This document shows positions 10,247-49,649 of a stretch of DNA of 64,000 nt, one piece after another. The position numbers were made by a program, and so were the translations under genes. The first letter of the stretch is position 1, and each line of letters starts with the position of its first letter. The notes below the pieces were generated by a model. It was not told where the DNA came from and searched no databases. It worked only from the letters and a program-made list of their open reading frames with translations. The DNA lies in NCBI RefSeq assembly GCF_964355755.1, contig NC_092673.1:27657001-27721000 (forward strand). Reading direction: 5' to 3'. This DNA comes from Antedon mediterranea. Its lineage: Eukaryota; Echinodermata; Crinoidea; Comatulida; Antedonidae.

Positions 10247-10360
10247 TAGAAATAATTACGAGTCAGTCATACTTGACGAAGCGAACGGTCCACTGGAGTA
10301 AATGCAAAGTATTTTATCTTACAGTACTGAACTCTCTGGATATAACCTTCCTCAAAGAAG

Positions 10361-18833: not shown

Positions 18834-21800
18834 TCATGTCAACGAGGTCTGCATCGGAGTTTGTGCGATGCAGGTCGATGAAGTTGTTGATGGCCTGTGA
18901 CGAGCGCTCTTCTGGTGGGCCCTTAGTCCAGCTAATTGTGAATAGGCACTTTCGCAGACCAAGCATTTGTATGGCTTCTCACCTGAAACGTAAGAATTGT
19001 TTAGAATTTATAACGTGTCACGTGATTTGATTTGTGTATCGAACATGACGTCACACAAAAATAACGATTACGATCATTCATTGATAGAAATAAGATACAA
19101 ACAAAATACGAACATATTACGAATGGCAATGAAACGTTGGCTACTCTAATATTATAATAAACAAACTTGGATAATGAAAACACGTGACATGAATCACATT
19201 AATTAACATATTTACCTGTATGTAAACGAATGTGGTTCCTCAACGTCGACGATTGGCTGAATCGACGCTCACAAAATCTACACGCAAACGGCTTTTCAAG
19301 CGTGTGTATGCGCATATGCGAACGGAGGTTACTACGTGAGTTGAAGCCTCTGTGACAGACGACACAGTGCAGACGACAAGATGGCAAGGCGGGAATCTTT
19401 GTTACGTTCAAGTCTTCTGTAAAAACATTGTGTTTCGGTAAGTAATCTGTTATTTATGTATGTATGTAGTGCACTTTATTCAAATATTGAATGCTTGATT
19501 AACAAATACAACCATATAAGACAGATATGTATGATTATTCACTTATTTGTTATTTAAATTGATTTATTATTATTACTAAAACTTACCGTTTATTTGTTTG
19601 TGTTCTTCGGTTGATGTCGGTGACAACGGGATGCCGAGAAACGTTTCGTAAAAGTTACCGTAATAGACGAGTAATTCTTGGTTTGGAGGGATTGCCTATA
19701 AAGACAAGCAGACAAAACAAAAGTTATATCGTGCCTAAATATCTGTAAGTACAGTTTTACTACTGTCTATTGTTAAGCCTAACCATCGGATAAATTGGTT
19801 CTCATGTATTGTACGAGTAGTAGCTAACTCGTGCCACACATAGTGGTGGGTCTATGATTTTTTTTAACGAGGAGCTCCAAAATAATTCGTTTCTCCTATG
19901 CAGAAACAACAATTATAACAAATGTGACAATATGACCTTCAAAATAGATTGCTTTAGTCTATTAATATATAAAATAGATATGAAAATGTAGTTCGTAATG
20001 GCAAGGAAATCTAACAACAGGATGATGAGATCAAAGAGTTTATCTATGGCTGCAAGACGATGCGATCTTAACACAAAAGTACATATTACAGTACTGTATT
20101 TGTCGCAGCCAGACATAAAATCAAATGATTGTTACGAGTTCCTATCTTTGCAAAGCAAGCTCAGTGTCCTGTTTGTTAGATTGCCTTAGTAATGCTAGCT
20201 CTCCCTTGGACCCCAAACGCAACTGTTTTCGACTTACTTTTAAAGCCCTGTAATATATCTCGGTTCCTAATTGGAACACCTCCAAGTTCTGTTCATTCTC
20301 GTTACGAGCACAATTCACGTGACACATCCAGGTCTCGTAAGTTTCCTCCGACGCATCAAGATAGTGAGCAAAGTTACCGTCACTGTCAAACACCTCCCAT
20401 GCATAGCGATTATCAGTCATAAAGTCCATGTCTTCAGCGGAAACTATCTTACCCGTGAATGGACCCATTTCGGTTCCTTCTTTTATCCATGTTGTTGAGA
20501 ATATGCCGATATCGGAGCCCGGTAGAGAGCTAGGCATAATACTTAATTGGTTCGGTACTGGCAAGTCTGTGAAGTAAATACATTGCATTGATAACTTGTA
20601 TATACAACTGCACTGTATCCTTGAAAGTAACGAAAGAAATGGGCTATGAGTGGCTTAGGACCTTGTTGTCTACCCCGTCGTACTATGTCGTTTTTATATA
20701 TTTTGAAATTTTGTGTATTTTTGAAGAAATGAATATATTATTTACTATTACATTTAACGGAAACGATAACGGATACGACAGCGAACAAACAAACCAATTT
20801 TTCAGTACACAGTAGTAAAATTGGTTTTGCTTTGGTTTGAACTACCATTCTATATTGAAAGCAAAACTAATCGGAAAGTTTTAAGCCCGCAGATATGCTT
20901 ACTAGGCATGTTTGCATTTTGTTAATATTTTTATTCAAATCTATATTCATTATCTCTGATACAATTTCTCGGTTAAGTCGTCCTGTTTCGGTTTATATGG
21001 ACTAAATCCACTTAGTTGTACGCGATGATGGACATATTTATAGTTATGTGTAACCAAGTTTCATCGAATTGCACAAAATGGTCTAAAACGTCTCCACCTG
21101 TAACTTATGCCTATATTCATTGCATAGTAAGCAAATAAATAAAATTAAACAAGCGTGTAATATATGAACGCCAGCGCAGTGATAAAAGAGTAGGCCTAGC
21201 AGCTATAATGTTTTAATTAAAAGTTAAAAAAATACACATATGTCATTCAATGCCAGCCAACATACGTGAGCATATGGGTCGTCGCGATGCAACAACGTCA
21301 AGTTCACGTATCAAATTAGCAACAAGAGCGGAAATTAAAATTAACTGTTATTTAGCGGTAAAGTTAATGTGGCGATTCTGATTGATGGACCTATAGAAAA
21401 TGATCTTACATTGTGGTGTGTTTATCGAAGAAAACCTGTCGAAAATACAACGCTTTTTGGTCATCAATACTAACATTAAAAGCGTTGATTGTATTGTTCG
21501 CCATAAAAGAAAATAATATCACCCTGAAGCGGTAAAAGTAACTGTAATATTAAATCATCAAAAGTCATTTTAGTAGAGTAAAAAAACTACACCAGTCGTG
21601 TAATAGCGGTAACTAAGTATCCTACTAAGTAGTTGTCCGTATCCATTTTCTATTGTTTCACTAATAGGTCTTAACAATTACTTTAAGCTTTAACATAACG
21701 TCTTAAACAAGAGAGGTCAAATAGTTACAAAAGCCCCCGGAAAGTCGATCTGCAGCCTCCTGCTCAAAAGCCATTCACTGGGGTTAGCCTCAGGCTATCA

Positions 21801-24669
21801 TTTTCGTGTTTTCTACAGTAAAAGGGTGTAAGAACTATGATAAAAAAAAGGACCCGTTAATGCATACCCGTCCTCGTTTTGCATTGTGATTTTTTTCAAA
21901 GAAAGTTTGTGTAATTGTTGTGTTTACATTTTTCATTGTATACATCAATCAAGGAGCTATAACATTTTCTGCCTGCATCAATCAGTCAAGTTACTTAAAA
22001 CCAAGTTTGAAAATTGATCCAAGTTCTTTATATTCTAGTAATTAACCAATTAATTTATTTTCAATCAACAAATAAAGTTTTATAAATGGTTTTTCTGACT
22101 AGTTTTTTTTTTCAGTTTAAACCAATTAAAATGGGTACGTACGTACGTATACGACGTCTGGGCAACTAAACTATAGTAGTTAGGCCTATAATATAATGTG
22201 TGTCAGGTCATGAGGTAAATAATATGGTCTGGTTCTAACATTATTTAGACTTATACAATGTAAAATGCCATATCATGTGATCTGACAGAATGTGAAATAC
22301 GAGGGATTAACATTATACCTTTAAAATCGTGGGAATTTGATTTAGTGATAATGAATATGCTGTTATGGATGATTAAATTTATGATGTTAATGATAATAAA
22401 TGTTGATAAATATAAATAATTAACAAATATAAATAATAATCATTAGGCCTATTAATGATTACAACCACTTGAATTAAACCAACGAATTCTCACAATAATG
22501 GTATTAAAGATGTATTGTCCCGCAAAAACATGAACATGAAGATCAGACCATTGTTTGACAGACATTATTATTTTTTTTAATTACATTTTTTTTTTCAGGT
22601 AAATAATTATTTTTTCGATCCAGTGAACTATTAAGTGACATTAGAATGGCATATTAAAAAAGCATATGAAAAAAAAATAATTTTTTTAGGGGACAATATA
22701 TCTTTAAGTATCAATAATCGTGTAAATGAATAGGCCTACGGACGGTTGATGATGGTGATGATGATGGTATAATCGTAATCGTCCTAGAGGTCAATGACCT
22801 CCTCATCATTTTTATAGGTCAGCTTTTGTTTAATTATCCTAAATTAAAAATATGATGCTGGCAGTATTATATTGGATACGTTTGAATACTTTTAAAAATT
22901 TCTATTTTTAAAGTAATAAAGTATATCATAATGCGAATACAAACGTTGTAAAGAATACTGTTATTGTGATACTGTTATATATGCTGGTACTTTACGCCGG
23001 TTTTTGACCCTGATAACGTACGTTTTTTACCCCGCAAGTGCACATGAAATAGGCCTAAGAACCTTTTTTAAATTTTTTTTTCTATTTTCATCAGCTTTGT
23101 GTCTATTCATTGTACGTAATTAAAAGCCTATATAATGTACGTATACCAAGTAACATGTTTAACATTGTATTATTGTGAAATGTACATCATATTATGAAAA
23201 ATATTATTTATTGAGTTTATTATATTATTCCTTGGTTATAATATTTACTTATAGTGCGCTTTTTACTGTACATCTTTTGTCTCCGCCTTAAACAAAAAAA
23301 TTAAGAAAAATTATGATTTTAATTCTAAATAGTCCTATAGCAATAGAATAACATTGCGTATATATTTCTATTTAACATGGCAAATTTGTCGTATATGCTT
23401 CATTATAGGCCTACGTATATGTCTATATTAATATTATGGCATTCTTTCCTTTTTGTAACATTTTAAAACCATGAATTTACAAGGATGTTATGAGATTGTA
23501 GTCGTATTTAATAACCTTACTTTAAATGTGTTAACATGATTAGGCCTAACAAACGAAAAGCAATTGTTGATAAATAAGCTCTATAAACTACGTGCAAACG
23601 TAACATTGCTTTTAAATCATTCACATATTGTCTGAATTGTACCGCCAACTGACATACCTACATCGTAGGCCCAGAGTGCTAATGAAGACACAATATGTTC
23701 ATTTCAAACTCGCGTGATAACACTTTGCGCAATAACGCACGAGATTGGTTATGCATTGTTTCACTACGCCGGGTTCACACCGGTTGCGTTTTACGCCAAA
23801 CGTGTAGGACCTACCTGGATTCCGTGTACCTAAATTGTCACTGTTTACGACAATCATCTGTTGTCGGTCGGCTATCCTATATTTATTATATAGCTAGGTA
23901 TTAGTTGTGAGGTCGTCACACGTGCGTTGTATGTAGTTTATCATGCCGTTCTGCTTCTCCATTGTTTACATAACATATTATCTATTTTAGAGTGTCCAAC
24001 ATATTTCCAAATACCTACGATTATCATTTCGAATAATAGTTACATATACTCATAATAATATTATGTTTAATTCGGTATTATTCGTCAAAAACATTCTCGA
24101 CAAGAAACCAGTAGTAGTTATTAAAATTATATTACATAATTGAATGTTATTTATTATGATATTTTAGCTAAACATCGTTTAATGTAGTAGTTATGTAATA
24201 AACACATGATAGATATACTTGATGTCTTGTTATACTGGGCCGTTGGTGTCGTATGCTTGGCACATGCGTAATGACGTATTACAAAGGTCGAAATTTGTCG
24301 AAATTTCGACAAATGCCGAACAACTTGTCGAAACGCGCTGTTTATAAATTGTGTTTTTAGAGTTAAATTTCAACTTTTTATCACATAATCTGTTGATAAT
24401 GGCTATGGGAGTCTACACAGACTATATTTAACTGTAAATTAATGAAAATAATTATGTTTACCTTTCTTTTTCTCGATGATTTCGTTGGCACTGTGTTTCG
24501 TCTGCCGGGTGACCGTCTCCCCAACGACGTTACACCATTTACCGTAAAGCGCGTTTCGCAGCAACTCGGCTGTAATCAAATTACTCGGTAAAGAAGACTG
24601 GGACATTTTTAAATTTCGTGTATCTACCTCGATAGATGAACTGTTAAAACACTTGTTGAAATTTGCCAT
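18834..24669 (-). CDS. PRDM12: PR domain zinc finger protein 12 (5 coding exons, 331 aa)
   Basis: Orthologue of PRDM12, a nuclear transcriptional regulator of sensory-neuron and V1 spinal progenitor fate in vertebrates, thought to act by recruiting histone methyltransferase activity. Exons on the minus strand: 24669-24462, 20566-20238, 19695-19587, 19416-19216, 18982-18834 (TGA). Frame and GT-AG sites agree at every junction. The N-terminal box [20 protein letters not shown] matches the vertebrate PRDM12 N-terminus. The PR/SET domain covers about 79-198 ([43 protein letters not shown]). Three C2H2 fingers follow: 233-253 ([20 protein letters not shown]), 261-281 ([20 protein letters not shown]) and 289-311 ([18 protein letters not shown], ending SARH). 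The C-terminus is short (20 residues after the last His) and lacks the polyalanine tract of vertebrate PRDM12 (367 aa in human). Intron 1 is 3.9 kb. Confidence 0.95.
20567..24461. other. Prdm12 intron 1
   Basis: 3.9 kb of AT-rich intron with several TAGGCCTA motifs, a GATGGTGAT microsatellite near 22748-22770 and homopolymer A/T tracts. No other gene, RNA or clear transposon was recognised. Candidate neural enhancers could lie here, but nothing in the sequence alone shows them. Confidence 0.5.
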
Positions 24670-24670
24670 T

Positions 24671-24678
24671 TATATATA
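24671..24678 (-). promoter_or_regulatory. TATA-like element abutting the first ATG of Prdm12
   Basis: TATATATA on the minus strand lies directly before the first in-frame ATG (24669). If it works as a TATA box, transcription would begin about 25-30 bp downstream, inside the annotated ORF. Translation would then start at the next in-frame ATG (24606-24604, Met22), giving a 310-residue protein. The N-terminal conserved box is kept either way. Confidence 0.35.
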
Positions 24679-27142
24679 GCCAGCAGTCAAAGTGGTTGAA
24701 TGTTGTCGGGCAAACGCCACATTGTCCTAAATCGCATTTGATTAGTTGCTAATGAAGTAGCTAAACACTCTTTTAACAATCAGGCAATGTTGAACAAAGG
24801 CTGACTAAATTTGTGTATCTTAATACGACAAGTGTCTGTTATGATATGAAAACGTGGAGAACAGCAGCACGGTGGCTGCGCCTGTCCTGTAGTTCAAACC
24901 TCTAAGCGATGTGCACCTGCAAGTTGTTCTAGCGGGTGCCGCGTGTATCTGGTCAGGACGCAAACGTCAGAGTCATTAATTTCAATGCATAAGAAAAGAA
25001 GTAAAGCTGTACTGACAGGTGAAGAGCATGCTAGCTAGGGAAACTCAATTAATATAAATAAATGCCTGATAAATGGTGCGCCAACACACGCTCAAAGTTT
25101 GACAAAGTTCGTGGCAGCTGGTTTGGTTAACGTGTGTTCAACGTTACCAACTACACGTAGCCTACAAGCAACAACACAGAAATATAAAATACTTTGTTAA
25201 ATATTTAATAAGACAGCGATTAAACAAAGCGCGGCTACTAGATAAGTTAGAGTGATTACTAACTTGTTAGTTGGAATCGTTTACAAAGGAGAAATATTGG
25301 GGACGGAGAATGACTTATTGACGACATAACCGCGCCGCGAGAAAAAAAAAACAACACATGAGTACAGTCCACCCACACGAAACCATTCAAAACACTTGTT
25401 GCATTTACATTATACATTTTATTCAGGCAGATGTTATTAAAACGAATGATTTATCCAACAATGTCATACCAACATTTTCTTCACTTGAGATGTCTTCTTA
25501 TTAGCAAGATAACGTCATTGCAATTATTTTTTTCCAATATAAAGTTGATGTAAAACCCTTAAACGTATGCCATACGCACAATTCGAAAACACTGCGTATC
25601 TTAGCGCAAATATCATTATCGATTTAATACAGACTATTTTTACACAAAAAGTTGTTTTTTTTTTCAATCGTAGGCCCTGATTAAATCGACAAGATATAGT
25701 AACAGATTGCGCTAAAATTATTGTTTTATTGATGGTGTAAAAACCAAAAGACCATAAATAATACTTGTATCATTGACGTACAGCATATCATGGAGTAGTT
25801 TAAAAGTGATTTAGTACAAGATGATTATTGATTACGTTAAAAAATAAGTATTTCTAAGGCCATATTCTCATTCAATTATCAAAAATGTACATATGTAATA
25901 ACCAGCGGAATTATAGGCCAATTAGATAATTGTATATACTCTACAGTGTATAATATCTCGATTCCATCATCTTCTATTGGAATAATTTAAGTATCCGTAC
26001 GCACAATAAGATTCATAAAACTGTTTATAATGGTACACGAAGATACACTTTAACATGAATATGATTTATTTATCCTTTTGATATGTTATATAACCTGTAG
26101 GGTAACAGTACGTTCTAGTCCAGCCCCTTCTAGATAACTTTTGTTTTGCATTATGTCTTTGATGTTTGTTAGTTATACATTTTGATATTTTATACACTTT
26201 ATACCAGAATTCAGCTTTACAATTTTAATAAATAAACCTGAAATAATATTACCATAATCACCTCAACGAAAAAAGGTATTTGCAGTGTAAAAGAGAGTGA
26301 TGAAATATGGTCTTAGTAAACCAGAAAAGTGTCTATGTAGAGACATGTAAACGTTTGATCCCAACAATATTTTAGTGTTGTGATAAAAAAGTTTTATCAT
26401 CAACACAGATGTTAATACGCTATATATTTATATTGAATTTAGCCCTCGCATTTTCAAAGAATTGCTGCGGTTGTTACAACACAAAACAAACACTTGAGAT
26501 TCTTTGAATATATTAAATACATTTTCTAGCTAATTTGATAAAAACAATATGTTTGTGTGAATTGTATTATTGGAAGTACAAACCATCATTCAATGAATTG
26601 GATTAAAGAATTAATGGGAAGAAGAGAATTGGTGGTGTCCACAATCTTAGCCATCGCAACGCTTACGGCATATTTATTGAATTTGACGTTGCCGTAAATG
26701 ATTATTATGACAATTGAGTTATTTACTGAGAGCAGACAGTGATTATATGATGATGATGTTGAATATGACGATGCCATAGAATTGTTTATGGTGATGGGCC
26801 TACTAATACGCCTATGTAGGCCTATGTATTTGATTGGCTGTTTAAAGTATGGCGTAGGGGTGCATACGTTGTGCCCATTGGTTATAACATAAGAGGAGGC
26901 CAAAACAATATAGCCAATTGCGGATCCAGAACGAGAGGGAGGAGGACCCATGGAAGCTGTCGCTTCAATAGGTTTACATCCGGGTACATAAATCGGCTTT
27001 TCCGATATATATTTTATTTGTTAGGAGAGCAGACTAAACATTATGATTAAATAAAAAAAAAATGTCCATGCGTCTATATTAGGCATATCGAGAGTAGGCC
27101 CTATATCGAAGTAATTATATATAAAGGGCCTGAAAAAATGTT

Positions 27143-27256
27143 ATATGCCCATATATAGACATGATGATGTCATATCACTACCATATTTAAACATAGCACT
27201 ACCATGGGCACATCAAACTTTTTTGACACATAAAGTTTGATAGTGTAGACAAAGAT
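27143..27256. mobile_element. M2 family MITE
   Basis: Internal 'tgcccatatatagacatgatgatgtcatatcactacc' and right terminus AAGTTTGATAGTGTAGACAA. The left terminal repeat is eroded. Confidence 0.65.
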
Positions 27257-27450
27257 TAAAGATGTGTTTTCTCATTCTCCTCTTTCTTTTCTCTCCCATT
27301 TCTTTATTTCAGTGGAGGGAGGAGGGTGGTATTAACTACTAAGAAAAGCAATTTTTAAAGCTTAATATATTTATTTGAATTTTATGTTTTTACTTATGTT
27401 CTTATTGTAAAAAAAAATAAAAATTAAGAATAATTGAGTAATTGTATTGC

Positions 27451-27458
<8 letters not shown>

Positions 27459-27532
<74 letters not shown>
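27459..27532. repeat. (TA)n microsatellite
   Basis: About 37 uninterrupted TA units. It sits between the divergent Prdm12 and FUBP genes. Likely polymorphic in length and prone to assembly error. Confidence 0.95.
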
Positions 27533-27534
<2 letters not shown>

Positions 27535-27718
27535 ATATATATACCTTTGTCGTGGATATGTATGTGTGCAATTATGTACTCGAATATAATATGCACTTGT
27601 GTGTTTTTGTACAGAGACATAGACCTATTGGTTTTTGTTTGTTTTTTGTTTGTAGAGAGGAATAGTTAAAATAAAAGAAAGTTATGAAAAAAGTGGATAA
27701 TACATATAAAAGTATAAA

Positions 27719-27769
<51 letters not shown>
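27719..27769. repeat. (AT)n microsatellite
   Basis: About 25 uninterrupted AT units, 190 bp downstream of the longer TA array. Confidence 0.95.
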
Positions 27770-27770
<1 letters not shown>

Positions 27771-27875
27771 CTGAACGAATTGTTTCGATCAAATCGTATA
27801 AAAGATAAAAGAAAGTACAAGAAAATTAGGCCTACTGGAAAAAAAAATCAGAATAAGGCCAAATAAAAAAAAATA

Positions 27876-29097
27876 CTTGTTAAGCGTCACACCCTCATAA
27901 ATTTTCAGGGGCGGGGGGACGGTTTTTTTTTTTTTTTTTTACTTTTTATGGAGGTATAATTTTGTGCGATGGACGTTTTGGCCCACTTTTTTTTAGGACG
28001 AAACGTCAAACTTTTAAAATGCGAAACAGAACAAAATTGACTATGTATGAAATATTATTGCCGATGACAAAATTGAGTTTTGTATTGTTTATATCCAGAC
28101 GTAATTAAAACATTAAATTTAATTGCCACCGAGCGAAATTGTAGGCCCTAGGCTAATCCGTCCAAGCTGCCACCCCCGCCTCACTCACTCGTCCGCCGTC
28201 TCTCGCTCGACTCATCTATCCAGGAAATTCCCTATCGCGAGAAGCATGATGTTGGTCTCAATAATACTAAATAGTGGGCTGATTTTGAAAACAGCTTACG
28301 GCATTTCTTAAGTGAATTTTTATTCAACGTATTCATTCTTCTTTGATGAATCCTTTGCCAATTGCTGTGTAAATCAGTATTTAAAGTTGTGATGCGAAAA
28401 GTGTGTGTAATTATTCCACACAGGTAAACCAGGCATAAGAAAACGCATCGCCGGGCCCATCGCCCAACAGGACCTCGTGGTGTGCCGATCTCGAGCGCGA
28501 GATCATCGTAAACAAAATTGGTAGAGCCCATTATGTATGGGGTGTTTCCTATTTACGAACCTATAAAAAACGCGCCTCGACCACTGTGTAGGCAAAATAT
28601 TTATTTCGTTAAATCCCTAAATTGATAATCGTGTATTCTGTAATCACGTGACTGATGATGTAATCCTCAGCGACGTACTAAATGCACGTGATTTAATGTG
28701 TTGGGGAAAAAGCCTGCTGTTTACCACATTACATGATTCGCGGTGCTATTCGCGTTTCCTTGACGTAAATCGGCGGCGTGTAAATGAAACAATTGTTTTC
28801 ACCAAATTGCCGTTGTCGACAAAGAGCGATCGGTGGCTAGCTAGCGTGGCTAAGCTAAGAAGTACGTATTTTTCAAAAATTACACCAGCCTAGCAAACAT
28901 TTGCTAGTTTTTTGAAATTTTCAACTAGCAATTATGAAGAATCTACTAGCAAAATGCTAGTTGCTAGCGTGAATTTTGAGCCCTGCTCTGGAGCTGGGCC
29001 GGGCCGCTGAACTTTCCGTTATATATGGGTAAAAAAAAAAAAAAAATAAAAAGAGAGGCGGCTGGATAATCAGGAGCGGGCGGTGACGCTTAACAAG
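27876..29097. mobile_element. Inverted-repeat transposon, 1.2 kb, TA-flanked
   Basis: Left end CTTGTTAAGCGTCAC and right end its exact inverse, with TA immediately outside both (27874-27875, 29098-29099). TA flanks fit Tc1/mariner-type target duplication. The interior has no transposase-like ORF. It contains repeats of GCTAG near 28840-28970 and a GC-richer segment near 28440-28540. Probably a non-autonomous element. Confidence 0.7.
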
Positions 29098-29099
29098 TA

Positions 29100-30477
29100 T
29101 GTTTTTTTATTTGGCCTAACAAGGGAATATATAATTATTTGGATGAAGTGTAAAATCATTGTATTGATCATTTGAGAATGAAATGAATAAAATAGTGGTT
29201 AACGCCACAAAAGAGAAAAAAAAACTACTAGTTTTTATAATTAAAGATCGAATGCACTTTTGTAGGCTAACGTTATTAATCTCTCGCGTGTGGCAGTACG
29301 CAGGCCTATTGGCGAGCCCTGTATGTAAAAAACTGAATTACCAAGCGCGATGTTAGTATTGCTTCTTTCCACCATAATGTTAACAGTAGTAAGGGCTACT
29401 AAATAGGCTACTCTTATCTACGATCGGTAGGTAGGCCTACACAGTTATGATTGGCCTATTACCAATTACCCGATCGATATATTAATCTTGAATTCCTTAT
29501 ACAAACATCAATAAGCCACTATAATTGTCTATGTTTGACTTCCCTATTGACTCTTTCACGTAAGGCGCCTTAATAACTCATTTGAGGAATCTTAAGGGGC
29601 AGAATTTGAAGATTAAGATGGATAAATCAGCCGCGATACTCCCATTGTTAAAACAATATTTGTAATAATATCGGAGGCTACACAATAACGTAAGAAACTT
29701 AACTCCTCCGACGACTGCTGTTAGTGAACGTCACTTTCTGCGGCCATGTTTGATTGGTCCGTTCCTCTATGAAATAAATACAAATTTACCCCTCCCTCTA
29801 ACTTATTTTAATGTTGAAATGTCGTATCGTATTTTCAGAGAGCGGGATCAACGATGTTCATTAGTCTCATGTTGCAAGATTTAGGTGCGGATAAATGTAA
29901 GCCCCTACGTTCTGTTTTAAAATCACAAATTAAGGCCTGCAATAAAGAATGATCACACATTTACTACGGAGGTATATACCTCCATACATAAACAAACGAA
30001 TGTAACGACGTTAAAATTGTATCAAATCAAACATACTGGTACCGGTATAGGCTAGCTAAAAATTGAAAGTACTGAATTGTAATTATAATAATAAATGAAA
30101 AAAGTAATGAAATTAAACTTTAATGAAAGTATTTTTTTCTTCAATCAAACCCTCATAAATGTAAAATGAAAGATTCAAAGTACGAAAGCCGTAACATGTA
30201 CTCTGTCACACAGGATAATTAGTTAAACACTTTAACAATTTTTTTGCAGATCTGAAAATATATAGACTTTGCGTTTTAATATTGGATCTGTGAGTGGTAC
30301 AAAAGGATCACTTTTATTACTCTCTGCATGCTGTAAGCGTACTTTTTTTGGTCATCCGCCCTCTTTTGCCAAAATGCATATTATCACGTGACCTAATAAC
30401 GCCGACGACAAAGCCATTTTGGAGTTTGCTTCAGCACATGTTCGTTGTTAATATTTCTGTTTAAAATATTGTCTAAA
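29100..30477. promoter_or_regulatory. Upstream region of FUBP, with E-box and YY1-like motif
   Basis: The FUBP promoter should lie in the last few hundred bases. Near 30384 there is a palindromic E-box in ATCACGTGACC (bHLH/USF-type), and near 30413 AAAGCCATTTTGG, whose reverse CCAAAATGGCTTT resembles a YY1 site. No TATA box stands out. YY1-like motifs are typical of TATA-less housekeeping promoters, but function is inferred only. Confidence 0.4.
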
Positions 30478-33400: not shown

Positions 33401-36400
33401 TGTATAAATGTTGACGTCTGACGTCCCACTTTGTTTCTACTTCAGCATGCCTGCACAAGCCTCAGAAGAATACAAAATACCAGACGGTCTCGTTGGATTA
33501 GGTATGAAAAAGATAATAATTGTCAATGTTTTTTATTTATTGTGCAATGTAGATGGATGTAGCCAGAAAATATGGCTGAATACTGATATGAAAGCATTTC
33601 ACACCCATGTCTTTTAAGCATTCACATCTTGTGGCAAAGATCTTACTTATAATAATAGCTGTGGATATCGCTGGCTGAATCTCAATGGAGATACAAATAT
33701 AAATAAGCAAAAAGCTAAATCAAAGTAAAACGGCCAGAAAGAAATTGCAGAGATTTTGGGTAACACTAATCATTCTTCAGTGAGAGTACTTAGACAAAAA
33801 ACTAGACTCAATCTAATAATATAGAATTAAAATACACATATTTTAGTTACATTTAACCATTTTGGGAATGCACAAATCAACTTTTTATATATAAATTGAA
33901 AGACTATATACACTTTAAGTAGGAATAGTGTTTTAAGACTATTTACACTCTCAGTAGGAATAGTATTGTAAGACTATATACACTTTAAGTAGGAATAGTA
34001 TTTTAATAGGTTCCCTAAATTATTAGTTACAATCACGATTGTCTTCCAGTTATCGGCCGAGGTGGGGAGCAAATCAACAGACTACAAACTGACACCGGTT
34101 GCAATGTTCAGATCTCACCAGGTAGGCCTCTCTTCCTCAAAAACTGCTAGGTCAACCGTTTAAAACATTTTGAAACGTTTATCGTTGAACTCCTATTTAC
34201 ATTTTAAATGGTCATTTTCAAAATGCTAGTGTTTAAACAATTTACTTAAATGTAATTAATAATTCTACTTATTTACAGTTTGGTTTTTAGTGATTGACAA
34301 ACTTAATTATAATTTAGTATATTTTAGTTCTAGGTCGTGACCCTTGACCCCTCATCCCGTTTTTACGCATGCATGATATCACTATACTATGTTGCTAATA
34401 CAAATCTGCATACATTAATCTATACATTAATCCATGTTGTCTCTTATTACTGCTTTTACCGTTTTTGTATGTCTTTTTCAGCAATATCGTCATTAATAAC
34501 TAAATAGTATGTTTAATGAACTTATTTTTTCTGCAGACAGCAACGGCATGTCTGATCGTGTGTGTACGCTGTCAGGCAGTACTGTTGCTGTAATGTAAGT
34601 ATTAATTTTTTTTTAAATACATTTTAAAGATAATAATAATGATACCAAATTTCTATAGCGCTCTTTTCATGAATGATCATGCTCAAAGATTTATTGTCCC
34701 CCTGAAAAAATAATGATTCATGCCTGGAAAAGTGAATAACTATTTAACTAAATTTATTTTGGTTTTATTCATCCTTTTTTTTCATAAGTGTGGAAACTAT
34801 ATCCTTTAAAAAAAAAGTTCAAAAAATGTGCTTATAAATTCTTTTTTGAAAAAAAAATTATGCAAATGTAGATTTTATTCTTAAAATGTACTTACTTACC
34901 GCAAGATAACTATCTGCTTTAACTTATTTCAGGACTGCAAAAAGTCAACTAGATAAAATAATAGCCAAAGCCAAAATGACCGAAGCAGAGGGTACAATGA
35001 CGGAAGAGATGATGATTCCAGGCAACAAAGTGGGACTTGTCATTGGCAAAGGAGGCGAGACGATAAGACAGTTACAGGTTAGTGAAATTAGAAGTTATTA
35101 AGGAAGACAGTGGAACCGTAATTACGTAGCCATAAGACCGGAAAGGGTTCAACGCTCACTCGCTCCATGGTTCTGGTGGTAGAACAAGTCTTCTCGGATA
35201 AGGACTATAAACCGTAGGTCCAGTGTACACATCTAGAAAGAACCTAGTACAGTAGACGAGTACGGGGTGACCCCGGTGTACTAGTACAGATGTTTTGCCC
35301 TTACTTGGATATATGAGAACACATTTTGGGTGCAACTAGCCCACGACCTCCTGATCACAAGCTTTACGCTCATACCACTAGACTACTAATATTGCACTGA
35401 TGACCAGGGTTAGGTTCTAGGCCTGAGGAAGCATCAACCGGATGATAATTTTCATTACTGAGAAGTAGTTTAGTATATTGCTGTCAATATCTAGTGTATG
35501 CAAATGATTTAATCCGATTTATATTCACAGGAGGAGATTGGTGTGAGAATGACCATGATACAGGATGGACCTCAAAATATTGGTATTGACAAACCACTTA
35601 GAGTAACCGGTGAACCATCTAAAGTGCAGGTATGGTAGCTCGTAACCAACTCTGTAAATGTTACATTAATTTGCACGAATGTGTGAAAGAATTTTAGTTT
35701 CTTATCATTATAAGTTATACTAATGTTAGGTTGAATCAATGAACAAAATGGTATCTTTTTAATTAAATATAAATGAACTTTATTCAATCAATCGTCCTTT
35801 TTTTTATAATGGTAACCATAATGAGGTATAATATTACAGTAGATTTTTACACAAACAAAAAACAATATAAATATTAATTATAAAATATATACAATGATTA
35901 TTTACAGTAATGATAATAAAAAAAATTAATTGTTTATATTGACTATTATTGGAAACGGAGTTGAATAATAAATACTGAAAAGTTTAATTAGAGGTTTACA
36001 GTCAATTTAAAAGATATAATATATAAGTAATATTGTAAGTATTAAAGTAGCAGATAGTGTTTCGGAAGATTACTGAAAATTGGCAACGGTCTACAAATGA
36101 ACATGGTTATCTGCTAACACATATTGCTTCCATGGTATGATTGGTGGATTGTGTCCGAAAACCAGTCATAAAATGAATCGTCGCTATCATTTATTAAGAT
36201 TTGTTTATAAATAACTTCCCTCAAAAGAGTATACAATTTCAATTGGGTAGTTATCATACTAATTTTCTATTTCAGGAAGCCTTCCGCAAAGTACATGACC
36301 TGCTGGAGTCAAAGGGAAATGAGGTAGGTAAAGTTATCTCTAAATAAGGATGTAAAGCTCTGTCTACACTATCAAACTAGTTTGACAAAACAAGTGTGAT

Positions 36401-39400
36401 GTGGCCAAATATGGTAGTGATATGCCTAAATATGGTAGTGATATGACTTCATCATGTCTATATATGGGCACATCAAATTTTTTTTGTCACAAAGTTTGAT
36501 AGAGCTTAACAAACTGAAACAATAATAAAAGCATGGACATAAGTGTGCGAAACAGAATAGAAAGACCTTTTGCACCTGTTGTAATTTGTTTATGTTTATT
36601 ATCTTTTAGATTAATCGTGGTGGAAACATGGGTAATTCATTTCAAAGACGAGGTCCACCACCTAATGGCCGTGAGGTAAGCAATCGCAGCACCTACATTT
36701 ATTTATAATTTTATTATAATACACATTTGTTCTTATATTATAGTTGTATATTTTTATTGTATAAGTACAATCTTATTATAGTTATAAATTTGGTAGTCCA
36801 GTCTTTGACTGAAGAGGTTACCCAGTATAAATAAATAACAAATTCCAAAATTGGTTTGTATAATTTTTTGGAAGATATCTGAATAAATAAAAATCAGCAA
36901 GTTTTTTACATAACAATTATTTATAATTTTATGCAATAGTAATAGTCGCATAAAACAATTTTTACTGACCCGTTTATTGACCTGTTTTTTACTTTAGGTG
37001 CCGGTTCCTAAATTTGCAGTAGGCATTGTGATTGGTAGACAAGGGGAGACGATTAAGAAAATCCAGGTGGAGTCTGGAGCCAGAGTCCAGTTCCAAGACG
37101 GTTGGTTTGTTTTTATATTTTGTAACTAGAAGAATTGCGAGACTTATACAGAATGCGCCGACGATATGAGAGTGATCTCACATTCACAAGCATGTGTTAA
37201 ATTTTTTGAACTAATTTGTGTTACTGTAGTTACTTAATAGTAGAAAAAGTCATGAGATTCAATAAAGATTGTTGATCTCACTTCTTGAGTTCGGTCAAAC
37301 CTAGTGAAGCCTTTACTGATCAATGCAACCCTCACAGCATATCAGTTATGTCTGGCAAAATTACTTTGTTTGCTGTTGCCCTACAAAGCCAGGATTTTTA
37401 TAGGAGCGTCCTTTTTCTGTCAAATTGGGGCAAGCATAAGCAACTGAAAAAAAATGTAGGTCTACCTAAAGGAGTAATCTGGCTAGGTATAGGACTGGAC
37501 AAAAAAATTTTAATGAGTTGAATAGCATTTTCGCAGATGGTCTCTGTTTGTTAAAAACACTTCAAACAAGCACGAATGTGCAATACTCGGTACAGCGAAA
37601 GAAGCTGTATACAGACATATACAGTTATTTCACCATAAAGTTAAAGAAAAATAGGTTTCGCCAGGGCTTGAACCGGGACCTTATGCGTGTTAAGCAGACT
37701 TGACAACCACTACACTATGAAACCCACTTACACTAAAAATGTGGGTTACAGAAAGTTTTTTAATCCATTTAAATTACAAATAAATATGGTAATAAGCACA
37801 AAGCAAAATAAACATGTGTAAAAGTGATAATTACCGATTACACAAAATAAGTATTTAAAAAATAATAAAAATAAGATATACTGTGTATAATTATCATATT
37901 CCGTATACAGTACTTTTCACCATAAAGTTTAAAAAAAAGGTTTCGCCCGGGCTCGAACCAGGTACCTTCTGCGTGTTAAGCAAACGTGATAATCACTACG
38001 CCAAGAAGCCGCATATAACTACATAACGCTGTGGTGTGTGTCACACATTGTGGCTTCTTAATTAAACAAATTAATTAACAAAAAAGCACGAATGTGCGAT
38101 ACTCGGGGTACAGCAAATGAAGCTGTAATGACGTCATAAGACGGGATGTGACGTCACATACACATGAATAACCTACCAAATACGGCTATATGGTACCATC
38201 TTCGAGACGTCATATGGCTGCATCCGGTTTGAAATTTAAAAATCCGGATCTATAGATTTGAGGACATGTCCCTGTAGTATATTCATGCCAAATCCCAGCT
38301 CAATACTACAACTAATAATGGAGGAGTAGTACTTTAAAAATCGCACTTTTTACTTAATAGTGTCCAGATGGAGGAGGAGAAAATGAGTAAGTCCTAGACT
38401 CGGGTACCCCGAGTAAAAAGAAGAGGGCTACATCCATGGCAACTCAAGATTAATGTTAATATCTTGTTTTTTTTCTCAGATGATGGTGGTCCTGAAAGAA
38501 TAGCTGTTGTGTCTGGAGCTGAGGATGCAGTCATGAAAGCTGCAAGTGAAATAGAGACACTCATTGCCAATGCTAATGTAAGTCAGCAGCTTAAATCCTT
38601 GTTTACACTATCAAACTTTATGTGCCCATATATGGACATGATTATTTATCACTACCATATTTAACCATATCACTACCATATTTGGGCATATCAAACTTTC
38701 CTTGTTTTGAGCTTGCAATGATGTTTGAATTTCTTCACCTGAATGTCCATGTGGATACAAAAACCGAGCTTTTTAATACTGAGCAAGCACGTGTGCTACC
38801 TTCACCATATGTATAATCGTACATTGTTTTTTTTTTACATGTGGTTAGTTGCTCTCTTTGTTAGAGAGAAAGTGTGTATGTGGTCAAGGACAAAGTCATG
38901 CAACATCTATTTATTAGTCAATACCACACCAATATCAATTTGTTAAAGAATACATTTTTTTTAGATTGTATTAGCCCTCTGGGAAAAAAACATTGGTGAA
39001 TATTACATTTTAATTTCACATAATAGTTATTCACTTTTACCAAAAAAAATGGATCAGAAAAAAAAATTATATGAAAAAACTAAATTAAAATCTTGAGTGG
39101 TGGTTGGTGTTGTATCCTTATTTTTGTTTTTTAAATGCAAAATTGCCTGATTTGATTAATTCTTCATTTTTTTAATGTTTTTAATTACCTGTTGATTTGT
39201 ATTTAAGAGTTTGTAAATAGTTACTTTATATGGTTTGTTTTGCCTAAAAAAACAACTTCAATTTGGGTTTAATTTTGTAGAGAGATGGTGATCGTGGAAA
39301 CGGCATGTCTATGAGAGGTGGTAGAGGAGGTGGACGTGGAGGATTTAGAGGTGGACGAGGGGGCTTCAATAGAGGACCACCAGGAATGGGAGGTCCACGA

Positions 39401-42400
39401 GGACCCCCACCTCATCATGGTGGTCCCCATGGTGGCCCCCCTCATGGAGGAGGAGGAGGAGGAGGAGGGCCAGGTGGTATGAATACACTGGAGTATGGTG
39501 TACCGGCTAACAAATGCGGCATTGTCATTGGTAAAGGTACATAATCAATCATAGTAATTTAATTAGGGATCCGGTCAAATTTATTTTACTGAAGTAACTG
39601 TTTTTTACTACAATGTATGATTTCAGAAAAAGTTTGCTAGATAATAATTTAAAAAAAAATTTTATCAATACTCTCCCAATACCACTTCCAAAACCAGAAT
39701 ATAAAAGGTCCCAAATTATTTGCACCTGCTAGAACCCACCATCTTTTACCATGGATGTTGGGCGTATAATGTGTGCTACAGAAAACACAGGCTAGGTTTT
39801 CGCTAACACTACCAGGGCATTGCCCAATTGGATGGGTTTGATAGTAGGCCTAGCCACAACTGAACAATTCTATTAAATAGAAAGGATTTATTTTGCTATT
39901 TTATTTTGTTATCTTATTTTGTTATCATTTGCTTTACTTAAGGATAAAGTAATTATTGTTAATGTATTTGCATATCTAATTTGCATAAATGACAGGTGGC
40001 GAAAGTATAAATAACATTAAGACTACAAGCGGTGCTCATGTTGAGATCAGTCGGAACAATGGGCCACCAGGACAGAAGTTGTTCTTTATTCGTGGTACAC
40101 AAGAACAGATTGATCACGCAAAGTTCTTAATTAATGAGAAAATAAATGGAAGTAATGTAAGTATCCATGTTTTCCTTCTGTAGTTGTAGAGCTCTGTCAA
40201 ATAAGTGTGATATGCCCAAATATGGTAGTGATGTGTCATTTTGTCCATATATGAGCACATCACATTGGTTGTCACAAAGTTTGGTAGTGTAGACAGAGCT
40301 TTACATTCCTAAGACCAATCAATATCTTGGGGTCATACGGTATCTCAACTTTCCCATTATCTTATAGACTAGAATTGTCATTTCTAAGAGGTCCCAAATT
40401 CTTTGCACCTGCTAGAACCCACCATCTTTTACCATGGATGTTGGGCGTATAATGTGTGCTACAGAAAACACAGGCTAGGTTTTCGCTAACACTACCAGGG
40501 CATTGCCCAATTGGATGGGTTTGATAGTAGGCCTAGCCACACGCATCATTTTGTTTTTGTTCTGTAGTAGTATTTGTTTTTTTTTGCTGCTTTTAATAAC
40601 AGATTGTAAAATATTATCTTGCTTATTATTGTGAATGAATCACTTCTGTGTAAAGCTTTGTCTACACAAAATAAGTGTGATATGCCCATATATGGTAGGG
40701 ATACGATGTCATCATGTCCATATATGGACACATCACATATTTTTGTCACAAAGTTTGATGTTTAGACAGAGTTTAAAACACTTAAAGAAACAACAGAAAA
40801 CCACAAAACTTTACTGAATTTTATTTATGTTTAAAACAACTTTTTTTTTGGCTGCTTTCCACACTGTTCTTCACAATCCATAAGAAACAAATGTACTATT
40901 TTCTGTTGTAGAATGATCCCAGAGGACCACCTCCTCCCCAAGGCGGTGCACCACCATATGGACAAGGTCCACCACAAGGGTATGTAGAATGATATTGTTT
41001 GAATCATCCTTCTATTTTTGATTGATTTTAGAAAATAAATCAAGACATGGTATATTCATAAATATATATAGTGTGTTTTTTCTAAATGATCCTATTATTT
41101 GGTTACAGAGGTCCACAGGGTGGACATCAGCCTCCCCAAGGAGGACCACCAGGAGGTCCTCCACAGCCATACAACCCACATGGATGGGGTAATTCATTTG
41201 GACAATGGAATCAACAGGTATGCTTTGATCTAATTCTGGTATTTATCATGTCCACAGCTAAACTTGGTCATTTCATAGTACCTATCGTGTCCACACTAGG
41301 ATTGACCACAGCAACACTTGGTTATTTCCTATTACCTGTCTTGTCTACTCCACGATTGACCACAGTAACACTTGGTCATTTTCTGGTACTCTCCAGGACT
41401 GACCACAGCAACACAGACGGAGCCATATTATTTTGATTTATAATTGTCTGACTGTCTTCGGGTCCTCTTTATGTTCCATAGTCCAAACTCAAATAATAGC
41501 AAGTAAGCCCTTTATGTAACCCTGTAGGTAAAGAATAACCAAGATTATTATCTTATTTTACAGTCAACTCTGACTCCCTGAATACCTAACCCTCTTCTTT
41601 CAATTGTGAAGTGGGCCGGCCCAAGGGTGTCCAGTTTCATAAAAGTTAACTGTACCACTTGCACCTGCTAGAACCCACCATCTTTTACCATGGATGTTGG
41701 GCGTATAATGTGTGCTACAGAAAACACAGGCTAGGTTTTCGCTAACACTACCAGGGCATTGCCCAATTGGATGGGTTTGATAGTAGGCCTAGCCACAAAT
41801 TATTTATAACTGATATAGATAATTATAATTTAAATCAAGTTAAATATGAATTGTATGAGTTTTTGGGCGAGTTAAAAAACTGTTTATTTTTGTGGTTGTC
41901 AAAAAATTATTGTTACTTGTTTTTACAGCAATCGCAGACAGACACAATGGCCGCTTGGGCCTCTTATTATGCCCAGTTCTACCCTCAGCAAGGAGGAGCG
42001 CAACCACAGCCATCATCGGCTTCAACTCCATCTACAAACACATCAACACAGTCACCGGCAGCCCCTCAAGGTACGTCCAAGTTCAAATATCAATACATAC
42101 ACCTTGCAATGCAATCATATTTAATACCCTTTTCAACACACTTTTTAGGGTTTGAGTTTTGCATGAAAATTAAATTGTTTTATTTATCACTGGTTTAAGG
42201 GAATTAACACAGTTGGCAATCGCGCGTGAGCTATTGCAATATAATATGTTAAGCGGCATATATATTCGACCCATACAGAAATCCATTCTACTAGACTGGT
42301 AAATGCGCATTTGTCGTAGCCTAGTACAACCGTGATAATGAACAATTTAAATGTTGACGTTCAGTGTGTGCATGCATAGTTAGCATAGCTATGATGCTGG

Positions 42401-44755
42401 CACTGTATTGGACAAATATTTAAGGTGTGAAATAAATCCTCCCTTATATTAATCTTTTTTTGCAATATCAAATGCATCCTAAAAAAGATTCTAAACCATC
42501 ATATAAAGTTCTGTCTACACTATCAAACTAGTTTGATCATGAAAAAGAGTGATGTGCCCAAATATGGTAGTGATATGATACCATCATGTCCTTGTATATC
42601 ACATTTTTTTGTCACACCAAGTTTGATAGTGTAGACAGAGCTTAAACCATCTTTTAAAACTCTTCTCTTTGTTACTCCCTTTCTTAATTCAACAACCCTC
42701 ATCGTTCAACAGAATACATCAACGCCCAGCTAACTATTTGATTGGTTCTCTACTTTAGGTGTGAAAATGTCTGCTGACGGCCAACCGGATTATAGCGGTG
42801 CCTGGGAGGAATACTACCGGCAATTACGACAACAACAAGGTGGCGCCGGTAGGTGGCGTTTTTCACATCCGACAGCTATCTGCAGCAATGTTGAATTTTC
42901 TTTACTCTTCTTTCTTCTAACTTACTTTTTCTTGCCTCCCTTTCTACACCTTAGCTTTTGTATGAAATTGTGCTTTTAAGCTTGCCAGGCATTTCACAGT
43001 TTTAGAATATCTATTTAGCAATTACAGTCACTTTATTTTATACAATTGTTGTCACAGATGATGCTCAGATTATTAATTATGACTGCCAACATTTAAAAAA
43101 TTTTTGGATGCTAAATTTAAACACCATCTTTAGCCCGTTTTGTTCTGGTAGGTGTTTCGCATAAAGTAGAAACTATTTGCACTCCTGCAAAAGCAATAAC
43201 AAAATTTTAAGAAACTAGAATTCATCGCAAAAAGAGATATAGATATAATTCTGATGCCGACACTTTTTATTTGTGCTTTTCGCCTAGTGTAAAACAGGCT
43301 TTAGGAGTGGGGAATGGGGGTGTCCCCAGGGGGTTCAGCATTGGAAGAGTTAACTATAATTAAAAATTATGAACAAATGGGTGATGTTACTGTATACAGT
43401 CTATCGTTGTATCTGGTTGCATGTTTGTGTGATGTGGGAATGCACAAGCACTGTGAGCTCACAACAATTTCAGTTTTTGATAAAACACATAATTTTGATA
43501 TAAACCACAGTTCACTTTAGCACTGCTGCAAGGACCCAAACATATGGCTATTTTAGCTTTACTGTATAGATGTTTAGAAAAAATTTTACCAAAATATTCA
43601 TAAAGGATATCCTAGTTGGAACCTTGTATGTACAATGTTTAGGTTGACCATGGTCACTCATAGATTATAATGCACAATAGAAATATGCAGAAATGTAGTT
43701 CTTGTGTATATTATCATGTGTTGAAACAGTTCACCCGCCATGTAATCTGTAATTTAATTCTAGTAACCAATACACACAATCCTAATTTTAACATTATTTT
43801 ACTAGTATGATATATTACTGTTTGTTAATACTGAAACATGCAGTAATAATGCATATCACTACCCTATTTGGGCACAGGAAGTTAAAACAGTTAAATTATT
43901 ATGTCCCTCTAGCTGCAGCAGCACCAACCAGCCAACCACAACAAGCACAACAACCAGCTCCAACGAGCCAGCCTCAGCCTGCCGCTCCCACATCACAAGG
44001 GTCAGCAGCAGCCGGCGGCTCTGGTTCACAGGACTACAGCGCTGAATGGGCAGAGTACTGGAGACAGCAAGGCTATTATTATCCACAGACACAGGGAGGA
44101 CAGGCACAACCACAGCCAACGCAACAACAGGTATTTTGAAGAATGTTATGTTAGTTTATTGTGCATATGTTGGAATATTGGGACGTGTGTCCTCGCTCCT
44201 TGTCTTGACACAGTTTTGATGGTTTCTAGGTCCAGGAGACGATCGATTCACCACCTGACCTAAGTCAGTCGTTCTTATCAAAAACTAGTCTTTTTCTTTG
44301 GTCAGCACAAAATGGAACTGATCTTTCTTTTGGGATTTTTCAATAGACTGAAAATCATTATAAAAAAATTTGTAATACTTGTTAAGGAAATGGCAATATG
44401 TACATAACATAACAGGTGCAGTTTGGTGGCAGAACCCGACATAGAGGGACCCTTAAGCATAAGCGAGTTGACCAATGACAAGCAACAGTTTAAATAATCA
44501 ATCGCCAGTGATTGGTCAAATCACTTGTGTTGCGTTATGTCTTTACGTTGCGTTATGTCTATGTTGCATTACGTTTTTACGTTGCCTCTAGTCGGAACCA
44601 AGCAAGCATTAGGGGAGAAGAAAGTGATTGAATGTGCCGTCCACATCTACTGCAACTTGTTATTTAGTAGATAACGAATTCAAGTTGTGGATTTTAATTG
44701 CTTTAATACATCAATTCTGAACCAAACCTTTTTTGTTTTTCAGCCTCAGTACTAG
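30478..44755 (+). CDS. FUBP: Far upstream element-binding protein, FUBP1/KHSRP/FUBP3 family (20 exons, 691 aa)
   Basis: Four-KH single-stranded DNA/RNA-binding protein. In vertebrates the family controls MYC transcription, AU-rich mRNA decay and splicing. Exons: 30478-30561, 32719-32866, 32952-32994, 33446-33501, 34050-34121, 34537-34594, 34933-35077, 35531-35629, 36276-36323, 36610-36675, 36998-37100, 38480-38577, 39281-39536, 39996-40156, 40912-40979, 41109-41217, 41929-42070, 42759-42848, 43913-44130, 44744-44755 (TAG). All junctions keep the frame. N-terminus [11 protein letters not shown] and [16 protein letters not shown] match family members. KH GxxG loops: GRGG (113-116), GKGG (192-195), GRQG (286-289), GKGG (424-427). 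An RGG/GP-rich linker (about 349-405) separates KH3 and KH4. Tyrosine-rich activation repeats follow: [14 protein letters not shown] (546-559), AWEEYYRQ (600-607), [14 protein letters not shown] (660-673). Human FUBP1 is 644 aa and KHSRP 711. Probably the single pro-orthologue of the vertebrate trio. Confidence 0.96.
31296..32173. mobile_element. Inverted-repeat transposon in FUBP intron 1, TA-flanked
   Basis: Left end GGGTAGATGTACCAGACC followed by TCGGCA; the right end is its inverse (to 32173). TA lies on both outer sides (31294-31295, 32174-32175). Internal copies of a CCTCGGCA / TGCCGA motif occur near 31490-31520, 31740 and 32130-32150. No transposase ORF was seen. Probably a non-autonomous Tc1/mariner-like element. 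Confidence 0.7.
33007..33082. mobile_element. M2 family MITE, short copy in FUBP intron 3
   Basis: CTATCAAACTGTATGTGACA on the left, GTGTAGACAGAGCTTTA on the right, and the 'atgatgatgtca' core between. Internally deleted compared with other M2 copies. Confidence 0.65.
33898..34006. repeat. Tandem repeat, about 37 bp x 3, in FUBP intron 4
   Basis: Unit AAGACTATATACACTTTAAG followed by TAGGAATAGT(G/A)TTTT occurs three times, the middle one with a few changes. It ends 43 bp before exon 5. Confidence 0.85.
36354..36510. mobile_element. M2 family MITE, complete, in FUBP intron 9
   Basis: AAGCTCTGTCTACACTATCA at the left; the right end CAAAGTTTGATAGAGCTTA is slightly shortened. Contains two copies of 'aaatatggtagtgatatg', the inverse of the core motif. 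Confidence 0.8.
37654..37724 (-). tRNA. tRNA-Val(AAC)-like gene or pseudogene
   Basis: Read on the minus strand, the 71 nt fold as a tRNA. The acceptor stem pairs GGTTTC with GAAACC, with an A-C mismatch at position 7. The anticodon loop is TTAACAC with AAC at 34-36, and the T-loop is TTCAAGC. The T-stem has one mismatch. A T5 run follows 3 bases behind the end, as expected for a Pol III terminator. The mismatches and the close relative 280 bp away suggest a decaying copy or SINE-like derivative in FUBP intron 11. Confidence 0.55.
37939..38010 (-). tRNA. tRNA-Val(AAC)-like gene or pseudogene, second copy
   Basis: Minus strand, 72 nt. It has an A-box-like TGGCGTAGTGATT, anticodon loop TTAACAC (AAC), intact T-arm CCTGG-TTCGAGC-CCGGG (B box GGTTCGAGCCC) and T8 directly behind the end. 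The acceptor stem has two mismatches (C-A and T-C) because the 5' half is GGCTTCT. It shares about 40 bp of downstream flank with the copy at 37654, so the pair arose by duplication together with flanking DNA. Confidence 0.6.
38597..38700. mobile_element. M2 family MITE in FUBP intron 12
   Basis: Left part TTGTTTACACTATCAAACTT and core 'tgcccatatatggacatgatt', with repeated 'atcactaccatattt'. The right terminus is truncated. Confidence 0.65.
39706..39856 (+). repeat. Dispersed 138-bp repeat in FUBP introns, copy 1
   Basis: Runs from about GGTCCCAAATTATTTGCACC to TAGTAGGCCTAGCCACA. Near identical to copies at 40389-40540 and 41659-41796, all in the same orientation in FUBP introns 13, 14 and 16. 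No ORF and no clear terminal inverted repeat. Family unknown. Confidence 0.85.
40190..40303. mobile_element. M2 family MITE in FUBP intron 14
   Basis: Left end AGCTCTGTCAAATAAGTGTG, right end GTAGTGTAGACAGAGCTTTA; core 'tatgcccaaatatggtagtg' and 'gtccatatatgagcacatc'. Confidence 0.75.
40389..40540 (+). repeat. Dispersed 138-bp repeat in FUBP introns, copy 2
   Basis: Shares the extra 5' piece AGGTCCCAAATT with copy 1, then TTGCACCTGCTAGAACCCACC-type body to GGCCTAGCCACA. It lies between two M2 elements in intron 14. Confidence 0.85.
40652..40775. mobile_element. M2 family MITE in FUBP intron 14, second copy
   Basis: AAGCTTTGTCTACACAAAAT at the left and GATGTTTAGACAGAGTTTA at the right, with the standard 'cccatatatgg' core and its inverse. 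Confidence 0.75.
41251..41415. repeat. Tandem repeat of about 60 bp in FUBP intron 16
   Basis: About 2.5 units containing GATTGACCACAGCAACACTT and CTTGGTCATTT, with CCTRTCNTGTC between. It starts about 35 bp behind the exon 16 donor. Confidence 0.75.
41659..41796 (+). repeat. Dispersed 138-bp repeat in FUBP introns, copy 3
   Basis: Shortest copy, from TTGCACCTGCTAGAACC to AGGCCTAGCCACA, lacking the GGTCCCAAATT prefix. This places the 5' boundary of the core repeat at TTGCACC. Confidence 0.85.
42506..42644. mobile_element. M2 family MITE, complete, in FUBP intron 17
   Basis: AAGTTCTGTCTACACTATCA on the left and GATAGTGTAGACAGAGCTTA on the right; the best-preserved terminal pair of the family in this window. 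Confidence 0.85.
44452..44606. mobile_element. M1 family MITE in FUBP intron 19
   Basis: Interior GAGTTGACCAATGACAAGCA and the inverted 'gtgattggtcaaatcactt', with right end CTAGTCGGAACCAAGCA. The left terminus is eroded. It is the only clear M1 copy outside the aminotransferase block. Confidence 0.7.
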
Positions 44756-48996: not shown

Positions 48997-49041
48997 GTGT
49001 CCGATGACCTCCGAGATTGGCAGGATGACCTCATCGTTGTC
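48997..49041 (+). other. Candidate alternative FUBP exon (45 bp, phase 0-0)
   Basis: A pyrimidine-rich tract plus TAG precedes GTGTCCGATGACCTCC, and the segment ends at a perfect GTAAGT donor. It encodes VSDDLRDWQDDLIVV in the phase that follows FUBP exon 19 (which ends in phase 0 at 44130). It is clearly GC-richer than its surroundings. Skipping exon 20 in favour of this segment is possible; no transcript evidence is available. Confidence 0.4.
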
Positions 49042-49610
49042 GTAAGTAACTAGTACAAATTTGAATCATTCAGTAAATGATTCCCTAATCAAATAATGTG
49101 CTTAATGTTCACATTCATTATGTATAAAATATAGCTTGTTAATTATATTATTTACCATTGACTTACATTAGAGATGTTAATTGATAATAATACTTGTCTT
49201 GGTTGAAATGTAAAATTTTATTTAAGTGAGGAATAAGCATTTAGGTAAGTATGTGTTACGACAACAGAGCCTACAATTTTGTTTCATGTTATTTTTAATT
49301 CCTGCAGTTAAACTATGTAGAATTTGGTGAAATACTAAATTAGTTACAGCACTGTATTTCCAATATAAATTTGCTAACTCACTTAATTCTTATCTTTTAG
49401 TTGTTTAACAACAAATTTACTATGGTTTTAGAATGATATCTAGTAACATGCACTACTAAATAGTTTGTGAAGCGAGTTCAGGAATTCTACATAATTAGAA
49501 ATATTGGCAGAATGTTCATTGTGTTTTTACTTCAGCTAATGTATAACTAAACAACATGTTATTGTTGACTTGTTTTTGTGTTTGTGATTGTTGTGTGTGT
49601 GTGTGTTTAG

Positions 49611-49649
49611 GATCAGGCACTCGCATTGAGGTGTAGGCCCAAGTTCTAG
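49611..49649 (+). other. Candidate alternative terminal FUBP exon
   Basis: A GT-repeat/T-rich acceptor ending TTTAG leads into an ORF encoding DQALALRCRPKF and then TAG (49647-49649), in the phase left by the 45-bp segment at 48997. An AATAAA lies near 49814. Together the two would replace the normal PQY ending of FUBP by 27 residues. Confidence 0.35.

Follow-up and report, generated by a model that had tools for sequence, protein, structure and literature searches.

The FUBP-PRDM12 neighbourhood of the feather star Antedon mediterranea: an adjacency probably inherited from the deuterostome ancestor, and a plausible regulatory reason for its retention

Pain-sensing neurons and V1 spinal interneurons require PRDM12 for their formation; how the gene is controlled has been mapped poorly. 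The human gene has five exons and is taken here to lie beside FUBP3 on the same strand at 9q34.12, within the presumed order ASS1, FUBP3, PRDM12, EXOSC2, ABL1. In mouse, some 22 kb presumably separate the end of Fubp3 from the downstream Prdm12, a spacing that would put the Prdm12 enhancer e1 within Fubp3. This element (mm10 chr2:31,609,785-31,610,285), located more than 25 kb upstream of its target, directs reporter expression in the PRDM12 domain and is responsive to NEUROG1/2 (PMC5576485). The closeness of the two genes in human is also apparent from a single small 9q34.1 insertion containing both (PMC8383316). Ancient metazoan microsyntenic pairs and regulatory blocks of the Wnt7-Atxn10 type offer the nearest comparison, and the regulatory-block model predicts a regulated target beside a broadly expressed bystander (PMC8851819); for invertebrates, a bystander enhancer in the case of FUBP-PRDM12 is a proposal. 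The pair goes undiscussed in the full-text literature searched, where the two genes are co-mentioned in genome-wide association, trait and leukaemia copy-number studies, and full-text searching found no work joining PRDM12 with the term ‘genomic regulatory block’. Hundreds of ancient pairs like this one are reportedly known (Irimia et al. 2012), and FUBP-PRDM12 would join them as a case that is new or, failing that, undescribed.

The window analysed here is a stretch of 64,000 nucleotides on chromosome C4 of Antedon mediterranea (C4:27,657,001-27,721,000), and its features are collected in Table 1. A sequence-only reading had placed a complete PRDM12 on the minus strand beside a complete FUBP-family gene on the plus strand, and spliced alignment, guided by human sequences, confirmed the two as divergent, head-to-head neighbours, their identities being established by independent PDB and Pfam matches. 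PRDM12 occupies five exons (18834-24669, minus strand) with AG/GT borders. The best match of its PR domain is human PRDM12 (3ep0, E=8e-37), followed by PRDM14 (1.6e-15), and the portion encoded by exon 2 is identical to human at 56 of 107 positions. Three C2H2 fingers lie 3' of the PR domain and share about 85% identity over 87 residues with the human protein. A genome-wide search found no second copy of PRDM12, the next PR match reaching just 7e-11, and by these matches the minus-strand gene is the PRDM12 orthologue. A sixth exon proposed by the spliced aligner (23737-23829) was dropped as filler across an unconserved stretch.

FUBP, an RNA/DNA-binding gene, comprises 18 exons on the plus strand (30478-44139), with AG/GT at all borders and a TGA stop at 44137-44139, and encodes four KH domains in series followed by a C-terminal FUBP_C repeat carrying tyrosine motifs. 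Its closest solved structures are those of FUBP1 and FUBP2. All eight strong matches in a genome search with the KH region were exons of this same gene, and with one locus found in the genome, it is, as judged from sequence, the single pre-duplication orthologue of FUBP1, KHSRP and FUBP3. Its introns hold scattered repeats, 14% of the gene being repeat-like in what is a small sample. One intron also contains a SNORD36 copy; two more exist in the genome, both in RPL7A introns (C4:28,241,280-28,241,972, minus strand) 0.55 Mb away. Human SNORD36 is likewise hosted by RPL7A introns, and this snoRNA may have copied itself into a nearby host gene. The extent of the locus had previously been set at 18834-44755; its right end lies about 0.6 kb beyond the FUBP stop, and no coding exon was confirmed between that stop and 44755.

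Table 1. Features of the FUBP-PRDM12 window and its flanks (window coordinates unless prefixed C4)
Feature	Position	Strand	Remarks
Iterative polyketide synthase-type ORF	C4:27,606,385-27,613,284	-	2,300 aa; KS, AT, MT, ER, KR by eye
Laminin-like gene	C4:27,636,660-27,655,131	+	~1.9-20.3 kb left of window
AADAT-like (kynurenine/aminoadipate) aminotransferase genes, two	1475-4550, 10346-17646	+	second broken by repeats
14-bp-unit arrays (TGAATGAAATGTTT), two	14794-14951, 15264-15449		mutually inverted; between aminotransferase exons
PRDM12 exon 5	18834-18982	-	zinc finger 3, C-terminus, stop 18834-18836
PRDM12 exon 4	19216-19416	-	zinc fingers 1-2; spliced alignment, domain match
PRDM12 exon 3	19587-19695	-	PR domain end; spliced alignment
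PRDM12 exon 2	20238-20557	-	PR domain; spliced alignment, structure match
PRDM12 exon 1	24492-24669	-	N-terminal region; first ATG 24667-24669; spliced alignment; ORF 24442-24669
Spacer between start codons	24670-30477		5,808 bp; ~4.5 kb minus transposon
DNA transposon, non-coding element	27853-29119		1.27 kb; inverted ends ~37 bp
FUBP exon 1	30478-30561	+	ATG 30478; peptide ends ...ALQRAKQ; spliced alignment
FUBP exons 2-6	32731-34594	+	linker and KH1
FUBP exons 7-8	34933-35634	+	KH2
FUBP exons 9-11	36251-38581	+	linker and KH3
SNORD36 C/D-box snoRNA	38713-38787	+	in FUBP intron; Rfam RF00049, 75 bits
FUBP exons 12-13	39384-40156	+	glycine-rich linker and KH4
FUBP exons 14-18	40912-44139	+	proline/glycine-rich, tyrosine-motif tail (AWASYY, AWEEYY, EWAEYW); FUBP_C; stop 44137-44139
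CpG-depleted domain	32000-50000		FUBP body and ~6 kb past stop; CpG observed/expected 0.53-0.55
Near-identical open frames, local duplication	55359-55634, 56075-56356	-	92-94 aa; Pfam: no match
TRAF2-like genes, two in tandem	63896-64000 on to C4:27,728,995		RING, zinc fingers, MATH domain

The genome is ambulacrarian, since it carries a canonical set of twelve Hox genes with posterior members of the 9/10 and 11/13 types, a set common to hemichordates. A search with the Antennapedia homeodomain located this ordered cluster at C2 7.83-8.21 Mb, comprising Hox1-Hox8, one gene each of the 9/10 and 11/13a types and another two of posterior kind, of which one is inverted (the individual names are a reading). 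Hox1-8, 9/10, 11/13a, b and c are also the genes reported for the feather star Anneissia japonica (PMC7351957), and the Antedon set matches it down to Hox4 and Hox6, in contrast to other echinoderms, which lost Hox4 or Hox6. Hemichordates likewise retain ordered Hox clusters (PMC6307216), and it is the low number of chromosomes that favours a crinoid.

About eleven large contigs carry almost all bases of this genome, and C4 accounts for 36.2 Mb of its 354.4 Mb (10.2%). All seven human 9q34 genes sought were found on C4: ASS1 (24.13 Mb), PRDM12 and FUBP (27.68 Mb), RPL7A (28.24 Mb, located via its intronic SNORD36 copies and presumed to be at 9q34.2 in human), EXOSC2 (31.17 Mb), ABL (31.49 Mb) and MIGA (35.19 Mb). 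The position of MIGA had been predicted before searching, because human MIGA2 and MIGA1 accompany FUBP3 and FUBP1. Given the size of C4, the chance that four genes chosen a priori would all fall on it is about 1e-4. GTF2F1, the human neighbour of the FUBP paralogue KHSRP, was tried as a further member of the block, turned up on C6 and served as a control. The gathering of 9q34 genes on C4, with the control elsewhere, marks C4 as a descendant of the linkage group from which human 9q34 arose. Local order within the chromosome is otherwise scrambled: ASS1 lies 3.5 Mb from FUBP/PRDM12, PRDM12 lies 3.5 Mb from EXOSC2, EXOSC2 and ABL are 0.32 Mb apart, and FUBP-PRDM12 (5.8 kb) is the one human adjacent pair found intact among the four tested.

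Seen against its human counterpart, the Antedon locus keeps the orthologues adjacent and FUBP 5' of PRDM12, and it shares its chromosome with the other 9q34 genes. It differs in that FUBP is inverted (the human pair runs head to tail), in a gap of 5.8 kb as opposed to about 26 kb in human, and in that ASS1 and EXOSC2 are no neighbours of the pair. An inversion had been proposed to account for the difference in orientation, and the data bear this out in a narrower form: FUBP flanks PRDM12 on the 5' side in human as in Antedon, and a single turn of FUBP where it stands suffices. The same difference in orientation might be taken to mean that FUBP and PRDM12 met independently in the Antedon lineage and in vertebrates, the more so as genes do shuffle within chromosomes, but among an assumed 2,000-3,000 genes on C4 the probability of this particular pair is near 0.1%, and FUBP would have had to arrive on the same side of PRDM12 twice; such a double meeting is very improbable. 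Because C4 represents the ancestral 9q34 linkage and the pair was kept despite scrambled order, shared descent is well supported and convergence unlikely. The adjacency was thus in all likelihood inherited by common descent from the ancestor of ambulacrarians and vertebrates. A linkage older than the split between vertebrates and invertebrates, as the sequence-only reading had it, finds support back to the deuterostome ancestor in the seven genes located on C4; the evidence for the age of the pair reaches that ancestor at least, and its origin is perhaps older.

The wider neighbourhood was read for 60 kb on either side. From left to right it contains the polyketide synthase ORF, the laminin-like gene, the two AADAT-like genes, PRDM12, FUBP, the two TRAF2-like genes and PTPA. 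The LN domain of the laminin-like gene finds its best match in netrin-G1/G2 (E=1e-42, or 3e-61 with the first EGF repeats included; laminin beta-1 scores 1e-14), and beyond it the protein has numerous laminin EGF repeats, a laminin beta LF-like piece, an L4 (Laminin_B) domain and, as its tail, a coiled coil. To our knowledge, netrin-Gs are regarded as vertebrate-specific; this gene may represent the netrin-G ancestor in the form of a full laminin-like chain at a 9q34-like position. Taking human NTNG2, TRAF2 and PTPA to lie at 9q34.13, 9q34.3 and 9q34.11, respectively, the order PTPA-FUBP-PRDM12-netrin-G is the same in human 9q34 as in Antedon, spread in human over about 3 Mb. Since all of C4 is rich in 9q34 genes, the closeness of netrin-G-, TRAF2- and PTPA-type genes adds modest weight to the case for the pair, and also strengthens that for passive retention.

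Base composition distinguishes the two neighbours. After masking of exons and repeats, FUBP introns 2-17 gave a CpG observed/expected ratio of 0.53 and an excess of TpG and CpA, as compared with ratios of 1.23 for the PRDM12 introns, 1.06 for the spacer and 1.09 for the first FUBP intron. In the same genome, 3-kb stretches at Hox and ParaHox homeodomains give 0.80-1.30, and those at RPL7A, EXOSC2 and GTF2F1 give 0.42-0.58. CpG depletion in invertebrates marks methylated, broadly expressed genes. Because their values match those of the respective gene classes, FUBP has the appearance of a housekeeping gene, PRDM12 that of a developmental, Hox-like one. Depletion as strong as that of the FUBP body continues over 44140-50000 and stops near 50 kb, which points either to a long 3' UTR or to a broadly transcribed gene that escaped recognition. 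As an indirect sign of expression class, the contrast between the two genes fits a regulatory block and argues against shared expression. It therefore weighs on the idea that co-expression from a shared two-way promoter keeps the pair together, a notion to which the head-to-head arrangement in Antedon lends some appeal. The distance between start codons, earlier put at about 5.8 kb and measured at 5,808 bp, is well above the roughly 1 kb customary between start sites of such promoters, and the human genes stand head to tail, so that a common promoter is the least probable of the explanations considered.

Under passive retention, FUBP and PRDM12 were inherited from the deuterostome ancestor and held by no selection, surviving by chance on a slowly reshuffling chromosome. 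The entire 9q34 group is still together on C4, and with several other 9q34 genes within 100 kb, netrin-G-type, TRAF2-type and PTPA genes being within 60 kb, local survival is not unique to the pair and part of the closeness may be a chromosome-level effect. The spacer itself tolerates insertions. It appears to hold no recognisable gene, its three longest ORFs (26589-26999, 28232-28549, 28621-28890) being free of Pfam domains, and at least 39 further copies of its transposon exist, with identities reaching 100%. Such a recent 1.27-kb insertion, with one sister elsewhere that is 100% identical, indicates that the spacer is not densely constrained. Moreover, the pair came to attention in hindsight, and unselected persistence may occur in a few percent of ancestral pairs. 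On the other hand, local order has mostly been lost, the outer human neighbours ASS1 and EXOSC2 now being 3.5 Mb off, and the CpG contrast between target and bystander together with the distant mouse enhancer are what would be expected of a held pair. Chance survival is a serious rival, its probability short of even. Inherited adjacency kept by cis-regulation of PRDM12 across FUBP is the best single explanation and a plausible one, its probability marginally above even, and unselected survival is nearly as likely.

According to the regulatory explanation, FUBP would already have been the direct neighbour of PRDM12, on its 5' side, when ambulacrarians and vertebrates last shared an ancestor, and would later have been flipped in place in one lineage. 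PRDM12 would be the regulated target and FUBP a housekeeping bystander, with some neural enhancers of PRDM12 located within or beyond FUBP, so that breaks between the two genes would be selected against and an in-place turn of FUBP tolerated. Mouse e1 resembles what is proposed here, as a neural control element of PRDM12 on the FUBP side and more than 25 kb upstream, and differs in being known from mouse alone, its source paper making no mention of Fubp3 and offering no test of deep conservation. That PRDM12 enhancers lie in or beyond FUBP in Antedon has about an even chance of being correct. The broader proposition, that a PRDM12 regulatory block predates the echinoderm/vertebrate split, neuronal enhancers within or beyond FUBP having kept the two genes together for more than half a billion years, and that it survived the in-place inversion of FUBP, is more tentative, its chances falling somewhat below even. 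With its outer neighbours dispersed on the same chromosome, FUBP-PRDM12 allows the idea of a regulatory block to be tested cleanly. If its link is regulatory and of such age, FUBP introns and the spacer would be where the oldest enhancers of PRDM12 should be sought, and non-coding variants of human FUBP3 could be interpreted as variants affecting PRDM12.
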